NCBI GenBank assembly: GCA_937129395.1
Contig: CAKZNE010000183.1
Coordinates: forward strand, 1 to 34,645
Source: an uncultured Cryomorphaceae bacterium
GTDB lineage: Bacteria; Bacteroidota; Bacteroidia; Flavobacteriales; Schleiferiaceae
Reading direction: 5' to 3'
Length of the DNA: 34,645 bases
Shown here one piece after another: positions 10,758-15,215 of this stretch. Position numbers and translations under genes: made by a program. Positions within the stretch are counted from its first letter, which is position 1. Every line of letters begins with the position of its first letter. The notes beneath the pieces are model-generated. The model did no database searches. It had not been told where the DNA came from and saw nothing but the letters and a program-made list of their open reading frames with translations.

Positions 10758-11456
10758 TTGAAGCTAAAAGATTTTTCCAAGCTTTATTGGTCATTTGTGC
10801 TTTTCCATCTGGCCATTATTTACCGGCCAGATCCTGCCTTATTTTATGTTAGCAAGCCTTTGGTGCTTATTTCCTTGCTTTTATTCTTTTTGAGTAAGGT
10901 TGAAAAACTGCCCAATACTACTAAATGGTTGGTGACTATTGCTTTGGCTTTTTCCTTAGCGGGAGATATTTTCCTAATGAAATTCCAATTTGATTTCTTT
11001 TTGGCGGGTGTGGGCTGTTTTGGTTTGGCCCATGTTTTCTATGCTTTATTTTTTAATAGAAGAAGACAAGGGGATTTTCATATTCCTTCCCTGCTTATCA
11101 ATATAGTATTTGTAGGATTATTGATTTTTAGTCTCAATGAGTTTACAGAATTACCAAAGGACTTAGTATTACCGGTAAATATTTACGGCGGATTACTGGG
11201 TTTAAATTTAATTGCCTCTGTTCAATTTAATTTCAGCAATAAGCTTTCAAATTATTGGCTACCCCTGGGAGTCCTGCTTTTTGTGATTTCAGATTATATG
11301 CTTGCACTAGATAGGTTCAATGGTCTGCCCAAAATTTATGAGTACTTGGTATTTAGTTCTTATGCTGCCGCCCAATATTTAATTGTAGTTGGGGTTTTGA
11401 AGCACTATAAAGTTTTGGGAGAAAAGAGTTTGGATCAAAACGGATCTACAACCTAG
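10758..11456 (+). CDS. YhhN/TMEM86-family lysoplasmalogenase (TTG start)
   Basis: Integral membrane enzyme of the family that cleaves the vinyl-ether bond of lysoplasmalogens; activity in this organism is unproven. About eight hydrophobic segments fill the 232 residues. Family blocks include YVSKPLVLISL (about 29-39), ALAFSLAGDIFLM (about 62-74) and the segment GCFGLAHVFYALFF. TTG at 10758 is the likely start; the first in-frame ATG is within the third helix. Its last codons (DQNGSTT) contain the left copy of the 17-bp direct repeat. Replacing the sequence after that repeat with the priA side would give an equally short ending, GSTS then stop. Confidence 0.85.
   Translation: MKLKDFSKLYWSFVLFHLAIIYRPDPALFYVSKPLVLISLLLFFLSKVEKLPNTTKWLVTIALAFSLAGDIFLMKFQFDFFLAGVGCFGLAHVFYALFFNRRRQGDFHIPSLLINIVFVGLLIFSLNEFTELPKDLVLPVNIYGGLLGLNLIASVQFNFSNKLSNYWLPLGVLLFVISDYMLALDRFNGLPKIYEYLVFSSYAAAQYLIVVGVLKHYKVLGEKSLDQNGSTT
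11434..11450 (+). repeat. Left 17-bp direct repeat flanking the zeta-kinase cassette
   Basis: ATCAAAACGGATCTACA lies in the last codons of the lysoplasmalogenase gene. An identical copy in the same orientation covers the priA 3' end at 12717-12733. The bases on either side differ, so the match is exactly 17. This looks like an insertion-site duplication or recombination site. Confidence 0.8.
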
Positions 11457-11579
11457 ATTATCTTTAACGAATTTTCAAGGAATTGGTCTTCTGATATTGT
11501 AGATATTCCACAAAATAAATTGGAAGTATCTAAGATTAAAAAGGGTTTTCAAAAATCATTACCTTTGAATTATGGCTAA
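11457..11579 (+). pseudogene. Possible truncated 3' coding remnant at the cassette's left edge
   Basis: Immediately after the lysoplasmalogenase stop there are 40 open codons ending in TAA at 11577-11579, with no ATG. The reading is protein-like (for example NEFSRNWSSDIVDIPQNKL). The stop overlaps the ATG of the next gene by 8 bases, a normal operon junction. It may be the tail of an upstream gene from the donor locus whose 5' part was lost at the insertion boundary. An open frame this short can also arise by chance. Confidence 0.35.
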
Positions 11580-11868
11580 TCAGGACAGGTATGAAATATT
11601 AGAAAATGCGATTATGGGTGGATTATTTGGAGCTACTCTAGGTTTGCTTTTTACAGAAAAAAAAGAATCGAGGGTAATTGCATCCTTAGTAGGTGCAGCC
11701 TTGGGAGCTACTTATCAAGCCTATAAAGAAGCAGAAAAAATTAATTCAGGAGTCCTTTTTGAAGAAGATAATATTATTTACCGCGAATTACCAAATGGCG
11801 AAAAAATTCTAGTGAAAAAGTTGGAAAGGCAACAAACCAAAGTCCCAAAAACTTTTACCCTTGGTTAA
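11572..11868 (+). CDS. Small glycine-rich membrane-like protein, candidate antitoxin partner
   Basis: I do not recognise a named family. The 98-residue protein starts MANQDRYEILENAIMG, then has two hydrophobic glycine/alanine-rich stretches (GGLFGATLGLLF at about 16-27 and ASLVGAALGATYQAY at about 38-52) resembling a glycine-zipper hairpin. A charged, basic tail follows, ending LERQQTKVPKTFTLG. Its stop codon overlaps the TTG start of the zeta-like kinase gene by 8 bases, so the two are translated together. That arrangement is typical of toxin-antitoxin pairs, but antitoxin function is inference. A TAnnTTTG motif (TACCTTTG, 11560-11567) ends only 4 bases before the ATG. Confidence 0.75.
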   Translation: MANQDRYEILENAIMGGLFGATLGLLFTEKKESRVIASLVGAALGATYQAYKEAEKINSGVLFEEDNIIYRELPNGEKILVKKLERQQTKVPKTFTLG

Positions 11869-12598
11869 ATCAAAGCGATTAAGGGTTTTTGCAGGCCCTA
11901 ATGGTTCTGGTAAAACAACCTTGGCAAACAAGCTAATCGAAAACGGTGAATTCAACGCATCTGCCTTTGTTAATGCAGATGAAATTGAAAGGGAAATTGG
12001 ATCAAAGAATGGCCTGGATTTTTCTCAATATCATCTTACTTTGGAATTAAATCCGTTAAAGCAATACTTTCAAAATTACGGGATGAGCCTTTCAAAAACA
12101 GAGGATGATAAAATCCCAGAAAAGTTCGCTACTGATGGGGGAAGGTTAAAATATTCTGGGATTATAAATTCATATATCGCGTCTGATCTTGCGGCCTATG
12201 TTAGAGAGCAATTGCTAGCAAACGGTGAAAATTTTTGGTTTGAAACTGTTTTTTCACATACTTCCAAATTGGAAATTATGAAAAAAGCAAGAGATTTGGG
12301 GTATAGAATTTATTTCTATTTCATTGCAACGGATGCCCCTGAAATTAATATTGACAGGGTGAATAATAGGGTTGCCAAAAATGGACACCCCGTACCAGAA
12401 GATAAAATTAGGTCTAGATATTATCGTTCATTAGATTTATTGCTACCAGCTATAAAAATAAGCGATAGAGCATTTTTATTTGACAATTCTCAAAAAGCGT
12501 CGAGATACCTTTGTGAAATTGCCAAAGGTCAGAACGTAACAATGAAAACAAAAGACGTTCCCAATTGGTTTATTGATTTTGTTTACGGAAAAAAATGA
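11861..12598 (+). CDS. Zeta-toxin-like P-loop kinase (TTG start)
   Basis: Member of the zeta toxin/UDP-GlcNAc-kinase-like P-loop group. In characterised zeta toxins the enzyme phosphorylates UDP-N-acetylglucosamine and blocks cell-wall synthesis; the substrate here is unknown. The Walker A motif GPNGSGKTT (12-20) is intact. VNADEIEREIG near 38 fits the Asp-containing substrate-binding motif, FETVFSHTS lies mid-protein, and NRVAKNGHPVPEDKIRSRYYRSL supplies the basic, nucleotide-binding helix. It has 245 residues. TTG at 11861 lies inside the preceding gene. No epsilon-type antitoxin is present; the only partner candidate is the glycine-rich protein upstream. Confidence 0.85.
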   Translation: MVKSKRLRVFAGPNGSGKTTLANKLIENGEFNASAFVNADEIEREIGSKNGLDFSQYHLTLELNPLKQYFQNYGMSLSKTEDDKIPEKFATDGGRLKYSGIINSYIASDLAAYVREQLLANGENFWFETVFSHTSKLEIMKKARDLGYRIYFYFIATDAPEINIDRVNNRVAKNGHPVPEDKIRSRYYRSLDLLLPAIKISDRAFLFDNSQKASRYLCEIAKGQNVTMKTKDVPNWFIDFVYGKK

Positions 12599-12716
12599 CG
12601 CCTTCCTTGCCAATAATTCATTTAGGGTCTTGATAAATTCTGACAAGTGATTTTTAAGGAAAAAGGAGGCCTAACTAAGAATATTGTTCAAGCCCATGTT
12701 TGCCAACTTAAAGGCA

Positions 12717-12733
12717 ATCAAAACGGATCTACA
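12717..12733 (+). repeat. Right 17-bp direct repeat flanking the zeta-kinase cassette
   Basis: This second exact copy of ATCAAAACGGATCTACA covers the stop and last codons of priA (read on the minus strand). The unit from 11434 to 12716 is 1283 bases, one repeat plus the cassette. Confidence 0.8.
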
Positions 12734-15168
12734 TCATAAATCACCCTTACTTTTTCCTTAGGATTGTTCTTAAAGAACATTTCAATCTTGTCTCGCAAAT
12801 TGAATTTTACCTTTTTTAGTGAAACTTCTTCTTCCAATTTTAGCATTATTTCCATCTGGAATAGATTACGAAGTCTAGCCGTTAAAGGAAACTCTGGACC
12901 TAAAACTCGATCTCCAAAAACCCCTCGTAATTCCTTTCCTATCAAACCCGCCGATTGTAGTAAATGAAAACGGTCCTTATGTTTTAGTGTGATTTTAATC
13001 AACCGGTTATAAGGCGGGTAGTTGTAATTTTTGCGTTCATAAATACCATCCAAATACAAATTTAAAAAATCATTATCCATAACCTTGCGAATAACCTGAT
13101 GGTAGGGATCTGAGGTTTGAATCAATACTTTTCCTCGGTCTCCTTTTCTTCCTGCTCGCCCAGCCACTTGCGCCATAAGGTGAAAGGCTCTTTCCTGACT
13201 TCTAAAATCTGGAAAATTTAATAAGGTGTCAGCATTCATTATTCCCACCAAAGCCACATTTTCAAAATCTAAACCTTTGGTTACCATTTGGGTTCCAACT
13301 AAAATATCAATTGCCCCATCCTCAAATTCTTGAATAATATTCTCGTAGGCATTTTTCTTTCGAGTGCTGTCCAAATCCATCCGCTTTATTACTGCCTTTT
13401 CCAACATCAACTGTAAATCATCCTCCAATTTCTCTGTGCCAAATCCCAAGGCTCTAATTTCACTGCTGTTGCAAGCTGGACAGCGCTGCGGAACCTTTCT
13501 GGAAAATCCACAATAGTGACATCGAAGCGTATCTAAATGTTTATGATAGGTAAGGGTAATATCGCAGTTTTTGCAATGGGTTACCTCCCCACAATTATTG
13601 CATTGAACCATGGTAGAAAAGCCACGACGGTTTTGAAAAAGTATGACCTGTTTCTTGTTTTTCAAAACCTCTTTAATCGCATTGATCAATTCGACACTAA
13701 AATGACCCTGCATTTCCTTTTTGGATCGAGCTCTCTTTAAATCAATACATTGGATTTCTGGCAATGGAATATCGCCATGTCTTTTAAATATTTCTACCAA
13801 GCCAAATTTTTTTCTTTTGGCATTGTAGTAGGTTTCAAATGAAGGAGTTGCGGAGCCTAGTAAAACTTTGGTTTTATGAATTTTAGCTAAAACAATGGCC
13901 GAATCTCGAGCATGGTATCTTGGGGCTGGATCTTGTTGCTTAAAACTAGTTTCATGTTCTTCATCAACTACTATCAAACCTAAATTGGAAAAAGGCAAAA
14001 GTAAACTGCTTCGGGCACCAATTACAACAACGGGTTTTTCCGGATTCTCCACCAATTCTAACCAAGTTTCAACCCTTTTTCTGTCGCTAAACCTGGAATG
14101 ATAAATCAGAACTTTATCTCCAAAATATTGTTGCAAGCGACCAATCAGTTGAGTGGTTAAAGCAATTTCGGGAACGAGATATAAAATCTGTTTGTTTTCT
14201 TTTAAAGCTTCGTCAATTAGCCTTACATAAATCTCCGTTTTCCCAGAGCTTGTAATGCCATGAAGTAAAACAGTATCCTTTGTTTTAAATTCGTTTTTAA
14301 TTTCTGAAAAAGCCTTTTTTTGATATTCATTTAGGCCTTTTAGGTCGAAGGTGTCATCTGAATATTTCTCCTCAATATCTTTATCAAAATAGATATGAAA
14401 CAAGCCCTTTTTTTCCAAAGACTTTAGGCTTGAACTTGAAGAAGCACTTTCTTTAATTAATTGAGTTGCTCCTAACTTTTTATTTTCTCCTAGCCGGCCT
14501 TTTAAGGCAAAATAGCTTAATAATAAGTCTCTTTGCTTTGGAGCTTTTTCCAATTTTTCAAACCATCCCGGAATTTCAGTTTCTTCAATTTCTGGATGGA
14601 TTTCTACATACCTTTTTTGCTTTGGTTTATAGCCGGTTTTCAATTCCTCTTCCAAAACAATATAATGCTTGGCCAAAAGGACTTGAATTATTTTTAGAGG
14701 GTTTTTAATATTGATGATTTCTGCAATCTCCTTTACAGATAATGAATCCTGACTTTCCAAAGCTTCAATGATCAAAAATTCGTTATCGCTTATTTCATCA
14801 TCATTTATCACTTTGAGGTGATTCCGTAAAACGACAGTTTCACTTTCCAGTTTCAAACCAGAAGGAAGGGAGGCCGTCATTAGCTCACCTTCAAAACACA
14901 TGTAATATTCCGCAATCCATTTCCATAAAACCATTTGTTTGGTAGTTACAATGGCATGAAGATCTTCTATTTCTAAAATTTCTTTGGTTTGGTAATCCGG
15001 CTTTTCCGAATGGATATTGGCCACTAAACCAGTATATAATTTACGCTTACCAAGCTGAACAACCACACGCATGCCTACCCCTAAAGTATCCTGCATAAAA
15101 GGCGGAATTTGGTAGGTATAATTCTGCGGTAATGAAAGTGGTAATATTATTTCAGCAAATAAATCCAT
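12718..15168 (-). CDS. priA: Primosomal protein N' (PriA helicase)
   Basis: 3'-to-5' DNA helicase that restarts replication at stalled forks and recombination intermediates. The 816-residue protein shows the N-terminal 3'BD domain (LPLSLPQNYTYQIPP), Walker A GITSSGKT (304-311) and the DEEH box (402-405). Eight zinc-binding cysteines lie between 523 and 566 (CNNC, CKNC, CHYC, CPAC), inserted among helicase motifs. The C-terminal VGTQMVTKGLDF and QVAGRAGRKG motifs are intact. I chose the ATG giving MDLFAEIILP over a TTG three codons upstream. The stop codon lies within the right copy of the 17-bp direct repeat, and the gene converges on the zeta-like kinase gene. Confidence 0.97.
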   Translation of the reverse strand: MDLFAEIILPLSLPQNYTYQIPPFMQDTLGVGMRVVVQLGKRKLYTGLVANIHSEKPDYQTKEILEIEDLHAIVTTKQMVLWKWIAEYYMCFEGELMTASLPSGLKLESETVVLRNHLKVINDDEISDNEFLIIEALESQDSLSVKEIAEIINIKNPLKIIQVLLAKHYIVLEEELKTGYKPKQKRYVEIHPEIEETEIPGWFEKLEKAPKQRDLLLSYFALKGRLGENKKLGATQLIKESASSSSSLKSLEKKGLFHIYFDKDIEEKYSDDTFDLKGLNEYQKKAFSEIKNEFKTKDTVLLHGITSSGKTEIYVRLIDEALKENKQILYLVPEIALTTQLIGRLQQYFGDKVLIYHSRFSDRKRVETWLELVENPEKPVVVIGARSSLLLPFSNLGLIVVDEEHETSFKQQDPAPRYHARDSAIVLAKIHKTKVLLGSATPSFETYYNAKRKKFGLVEIFKRHGDIPLPEIQCIDLKRARSKKEMQGHFSVELINAIKEVLKNKKQVILFQNRRGFSTMVQCNNCGEVTHCKNCDITLTYHKHLDTLRCHYCGFSRKVPQRCPACNSSEIRALGFGTEKLEDDLQLMLEKAVIKRMDLDSTRKKNAYENIIQEFEDGAIDILVGTQMVTKGLDFENVALVGIMNADTLLNFPDFRSQERAFHLMAQVAGRAGRKGDRGKVLIQTSDPYHQVIRKVMDNDFLNLYLDGIYERKNYNYPPYNRLIKITLKHKDRFHLLQSAGLIGKELRGVFGDRVLGPEFPLTARLRNLFQMEIMLKLEEEVSLKKVKFNLRDKIEMFFKNNPKEKVRVIYDVDPF

Positions 15169-15215
15169 GGAAGGCAAATGTGCTAAAATTTAAGAATTAA
15201 ACAGGTCTAATTTTT

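Follow-up and report, generated by a model that had tools for sequence, protein, structure and literature searches.

The analysed stretch of DNA (34,645 nucleotides from an uncultured Cryomorphaceae bacterium, here called the window) carries, between the genes yhhN and priA, a 1,266-bp segment with a zeta-type kinase gene and a small partner gene, bracketed by an exact 17-bp direct repeat. The segment is missing from this junction in related genomes, and the same scar of a duplicated flank is found at many other zeta modules. These comparisons show the insertion, the duplication of the junction, a conserved two-gene module and the recurrence of the scar. We consider it probable that the module is of the toxin-antitoxin type, was acquired horizontally with its own promoter and came to lie where the 3' ends of yhhN and priA overlap by a recombinase-free entry, whose mechanism we infer from the make-up of the scars.

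The direct repeat and its flanking genes

The source genome is a draft of 3.8 Mb in 346 contigs, being 91% complete. The features of the junction are as follows.

10758 to 11456, plus strand: yhhN, a lysoplasmalogenase-type membrane protein (Pfam YhhN, E 2.8e-36), whose orthologue adjoins priA in relatives
11434 to 11450, plus strand: left 17-bp repeat copy (target duplication), from the repeat search of window and genome
11451 to 12716, no strand: inserted segment, 1,266 bp, absent from this junction in relatives
11451 to 11466, no strand: possible decayed continuation of the left copy, with 10 of 16 bases matching the priA end
12717 to 12733, plus strand: right 17-bp repeat copy, containing the priA stop and last codons (VDPF-stop, minus strand)
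12718 to 15177, minus strand: priA, the primosomal helicase, identified by Pfam PriA domains and by relatives and intact to its conserved C-terminus

An earlier note, made from the letters of the window, had reported two copies of the exact 17-mer ATCAAAACGGATCTACA, pointing the same way, one at 11434-11450 and the other at 12717-12733, and both coordinates are correct. It had also read the left copy as the last codons of the lysoplasmalogenase gene and the right copy as covering the priA stop, which the reading frames bear out. The C-terminal codons of yhhN traverse the left copy, the protein ending in ..LDQNGSTT-stop, and when the flanks are joined without the insert, the sequence gives a YhhN ending in ..LDQNGSTS-TAA that overlaps the priA end, just as had been predicted. 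The priA C-terminus is conserved, with a ..DVDP.-stop-like end in nearly all relatives inspected and ..VDPF-stop in the window.

With up to 3 mismatches allowed, the window holds just these two matches to the 17-mer, where 0.13 are expected by chance, and a multi-copy repeat is excluded, as the 3.8-Mb genome has no third exact copy. Ungapped extension lengthens the repeat to 33 bp at 82% identity (11434-11466 and 12717-12749). The rightward extension anchored on the 17-mer beats 295 of 300 shuffles, with the similarity fading, and leftward there is none, the similarity stopping at once. Because the repeat extends rightward only, one of its edges is sharp, and the other may have decayed. We rejected the idea that the left arm holds a longer stretch of decayed priA, as support runs out after about 33-40 bp. 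As regards an attC-like folded site of the kind that ends integron gene cassettes, no structured inverted repeat was noted at the repeat copies.

The empty site in relatives

The family-wide gene order is M48 peptidase, yhhN and priA, with priA convergent. Comparison of the junction among relatives, as the earlier note had proposed, gives a single copy of the repeat stretch, no cassette and convergent genes in a genome of the same genus (G001) and in seven other family members (G019, G020, G016, G029, G010, G026, and G034, yhhN being recognised in G010, G026, and G034 by eye from the reading frame and not by search). At these junctions yhhN and priA abut or overlap over the one copy, with no gene between them, and the yhhN frame of G020 runs on into the end of priA like the joined flanks of the window. 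The single copy is the conserved priA end overlapped by the yhhN end. The simplest account, since the junctions of the relatives have one copy and no cassette, is that 1,266 bp were gained in the lineage of the window with duplication of the junction, which upholds the reading of the segment between the copies as an insertion. The objection that the 17-mer might be a conserved segment of both genes in cassette-free genomes does not apply, because one copy serves both genes there. The junction being duplicated, yhhN and priA have each retained their own ends.

It is extremely improbable that the relatives lost an ancestral cassette, or that the repeat arose by chance. Other genes do occupy the junction in some relatives; however, many independent losses would be needed, each giving back a neat overlap, and this kinase type was not found in 59 relatives. 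For the repeat, far fewer than one match is expected by chance. These 59 genomes gave no close homologue of the window kinase, their zeta matches being of a shorter type, mostly 27-39% identical over part of the length.

The junction occupant in G002 (L031) is a 598-aa gene resembling an M28-type peptidase, with its stop codon directly adjoining that of priA; in G005 (L033), G031 (L043), and G023 (L036) it is an FKBP-like gene. No repeat copy was seen around the junction genes of these four genomes, and we therefore rejected them as products of the same event. The yhhN-priA junction looks like a recurrent landing site.

The two-gene module

The earlier note had seen no integrase or transposase inside the unit, and this is confirmed, the insert holding two genes only; likewise, no transposase or integrase was found among the 15 window proteins scanned. 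The features of the insert are as follows.

11560 to 11567, plus strand: TACCTTTG, which fits the TANNTTTG pattern of Bacteroidota -7 promoters and stands 12 bp ahead of the partner ATG
11572 to 11868, plus strand: partner gene, 98 aa, candidate antitoxin with an N-terminal glycine zipper and a C-terminal conserved segment
11861 to 12598, plus strand: zeta-type kinase, 245 aa, TTG start, assigned by Pfam Zeta_toxin and by fold, overlapping the partner gene by 8 bp
12599 to 12716, no strand: non-coding right arm of the insert, covered by the arm comparison and the terminator scan

The kinase passes the Pfam Zeta_toxin model (PF06414) with 37.2 bits against a cut-off of 22.3, as do all 55 aligned homologues, among which a Walker A P-loop of the GPNGSGK type is invariant. 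An Asp after the second strand, a candidate for the catalytic aspartate of the substrate pocket, is nearly invariant in the same alignment. The structure model has a mean pLDDT of 96 and is nearest to zeta, PezT, and AvrRxo1 (1gvn, 3q8x, 2p5t, and 4z8t being the nearest solved structures), with small polynucleotide kinases tying with these by Z-score. The closest kinase found is 50% identical, and no donor locus for the cassette was found; viral contigs yielded no relatives of the kinase and phage records three weak matches.

Our scan for the pair kept 80 named loci from many phyla, and in nearly all of them the partner gene stands first, immediately before the kinase gene; the small proteins upstream of zeta genes have a common C-terminal segment. 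The pair thus has the layout of a two-gene module, with a small conserved gene and an 8-bp overlap with the kinase gene. The partner model consists of two helices and three strands (pLDDT 79, less certain than the kinase model) and has no PDB fold match at E 0.001 or better. No homology to the epsilon or PezA antitoxins was detected among 42 partners, which gave glycine-zipper-type and stray weak Pfam matches only. By these sequence comparisons, the partner is a member of a widespread zeta-partner family (loci L095-L174 and 11572-11868 of the window) without a Pfam model of its own, and in many Bacteroidota it bears an extra glycine-zipper N-terminus. Working as a putative toxin-antitoxin pair, the kinase would phosphorylate a nucleotide-sugar or a similar substrate and the partner would restrain it.

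The promoter probably travels with the module, because TANNTTTG is found exactly 12 bp before the partner start in nine cassettes, the window and eight others. This spacing before the ATG also suggests leaderless transcripts. Sigma-70 and terminator scans gave nothing above chance, the Rfam scan gave no match, and there is neither an inverted repeat between the left and right arms of the insert nor a terminator-like site in the right arm. The base composition of the insert is not distinct from that of its surroundings.

Flanking repeats at other toxin-type loci

For each locus, we looked for direct repeats, scored in bits, between the flank to the left of the partner and the flank to the right of the kinase. 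Repeats of at least 30 bits flank 18 of 89 loci. Among controls, they are found in 3 of 371 pseudo-cassettes shifted along the contigs of these loci and in 1 of 443 mismatched flank pairs. With the threshold at 40 bits, the counts are 14 of 89 loci versus 1 of 371 shifted windows. Using uniform windows and more loci, 17 of 102 long-zeta loci (about one in six) have repeats of at least 40 bits, as do 8 of 38 short-zeta loci in uniform windows, each of these two counts including one locus fetched twice. The Fisher p for the long-zeta count of 17 of 102 versus the shifted windows is 2e-11, for loci that are not all independent. ParE loci have flanking repeats in 4 of 25 cases (few loci, with some of the repeats non-coding), and the control loci in none (acetyltransferase, 0/27; priA, 0/22). 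About five in six zeta loci show no flanking repeat, through age, clean recombination or another route, old and fully decayed duplications being invisible to a repeat search.

Wherever the repeats could be assigned to a gene, the end of that gene occurs in two copies, one belonging to the complete gene and the other to a stub. Named by eye from sequence, the duplicated C-termini belong to HsdS, HU, and an Xre-type regulator and the duplicated N-termini to HsdR and a dehydratase. Repeats at related zeta loci reach 24-230 bp, several being on the order of 100 bp, with 80-95% identity; their sequences are unrelated and they lie at 5' as well as 3' gene ends. The same-genus relative G001 offers a second case with an empty site (L053). 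A short zeta gene there follows hutU, and beyond it lies a hutU tail that has decayed and contains a TGA. Nineteen further hutU loci were examined, each with a single tail and without a zeta gene.

Three further observations were made in these comparisons. Two ParE loci (L206 and L214) have flanking repeats of 230-290 bp at 93-95% identity that are unlike gene ends and possibly belong to another kind of element. L111 has a direct repeat of 97 bp and 85% identity, its copies about a cassette length apart, elsewhere in the locus and not around the zeta pair; this is the single strong match of the shifted control. L093 has its zeta cassette between a gene resembling a tail-fibre type and what reads as the C-terminal part of a tyrosine recombinase.

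Mode of entry

Homology-assisted illegitimate recombination is the favoured entry mechanism. A self-contained zeta-kinase/partner module with its own promoter would have come in by horizontal transfer at the point where the 3' ends of yhhN and priA overlap. A short homologous flank would have anchored one end and the other end would have been joined illegitimately, with no recombinase of the module's own. The gene end serving as the anchor would therefore appear twice. The junction is duplicated over 17 bp that are exact, the duplication having originally spanned possibly about 33 bp or more.

We favour this anchored capture because the repeats are variable and show an excess of third-position differences and because there is no mobility enzyme inside the unit. 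Repeat length and identity vary widely among the zeta loci. In eight coding duplications, 51 of the 78 mismatches fall at third codon positions, an excess with p 9e-9 against neutral decay of one copy and a marginal p of 0.06 against one constrained and one decaying copy; an imported copy that had been a functional but diverged allele would be expected to leave such an excess. The shortness of the window repeat speaks against the favoured mechanism, as 17 bp fits a simple target-site duplication equally well. The marginal p of 0.06, the five in six zeta loci with no repeat, the failure to find a donor locus and the draft state of the genome also count against the overall account.

For the window taken alone, the main rival is accordingly a true target-site duplication, made by an unknown transposase-type enzyme acting in trans with a 17-bp stagger at the junction. 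The exact repeat with its one sharp edge and the clean empty site agree with this; yet neither the window nor nine related units have terminal inverted repeats, the units have no common end sequence by eye, their ends varying, the repeats of related loci span tens to hundreds of bp, and neither the insert nor the 15 window proteins scanned include a transposase. We regard it as rather unlikely. Service in trans was one of the two options offered in the earlier note; the variable ends, the lack of inverted repeats at the termini and the composition of the duplications lead us to favour recombination-based capture over a dedicated enzyme of this kind.

Tyrosine-recombinase integration typically restores the 3' end of a gene through a short identical core, and the 17-mer could be the att core of a site-specific integration at the priA 3' end by an enzyme supplied in trans. 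The restored gene end with its short identical core has this form, and the cassette of L093 adjoins an apparent recombinase C-terminus. However, the unit is without an integrase, related cassettes sit in unrelated genes and at 5' as well as 3' ends, and the related repeats are unrelated in sequence, variable in length and 80-95% identical, so that we hold this explanation to be highly unlikely.

RecA-dependent exchange would make the repeats the means of movement, a circle with one copy of the gene end re-entering by a single crossover. The duplication of homologous gene ends with coding-type divergence would suit such an exchange, as would the fairly constant unit length (one repeat plus insert) of 1.05-1.47 kb. 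Against this, the length generally regarded as enough for RecA exchange is 17 bp or more and a circular form was not seen, making it very unlikely. In a related and, in our estimate, quite unlikely proposal, toxin-antitoxin-type modules would be recombinase-free integrative elements, their duplicated ends letting general recombination excise and re-insert them while addiction opposes loss. The flanking duplication would then be a means of movement beyond being a scar, common to zeta, ParE, and restriction-modification modules, and re-insertion at the same gene would be expected in related strains.

Comparison with known systems

The window case resembles an insertion mode of restriction-modification (RM) systems. 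According to passages of PMC3874152 and PMC1643837, RM systems insert without mobility genes and with long, variable target duplications on the order of 100 bp, and a passage of PMC3031569 states this mode for all RM types. In these passages, the "insertion with long target duplication" is credited to Nobusato et al. 2000 and Furuta et al. 2010, being summarised in PMC3874152 and shown in PMC1643837. The likeness lies in a small addictive module without mobility genes, set between host genes with a variable direct duplication and variable ends, and in an empty-site comparison that shows a single target copy. The module of the window is, however, a zeta kinase with its partner and not an RM system, and since its repeat is shorter, at 17 bp exact or 33 bp with 82% identity where RM duplications are on the order of 100 bp, we do not file it as a strict member.

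Homology-facilitated illegitimate recombination has been proposed for effector-immunity modules (PMC5361080), where likewise a foreign two-gene module is added through homology at one end and an illegitimate join at the other. The effector-immunity case leaves a displaced remnant of the resident gene, whereas no gene is displaced in the window, and natural transformation would be conjectural for this organism.

With epsilon/zeta and PezAT, the module has in common the kinase fold, the Walker A motif and a two-gene operon with the small partner first, but its kinase shares only about 14% identity with zeta, and its partner, which carries a glycine zipper in Bacteroidota, shows no relationship to epsilon or PezA in Pfam. 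Unlike a DNA transposon or IS, the insert has neither terminal inverted repeats nor a transposase, and unlike an integrase-driven integrative element, the unit has no integrase gene.

Implications

Chromosomal toxin-antitoxin modules are known to move often, and their entry without a mobility gene is mostly unexplained. We found no report of a target-duplication scar for zeta or other toxin-antitoxin modules in a literature search of incomplete coverage. The analysis defines a widespread zeta-partner family that lacks a Pfam name, and it describes a scar that can be counted across genomes, being found at zeta and ParE modules and not at the control genes tried, so that the question of how such modules enter becomes answerable by comparative genomics and simple bench tests. 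The scar ties the zeta and ParE modules to the insertion mode reported for restriction-modification systems and suggests that zeta-type modules, like these systems, spread without a transposase of their own.
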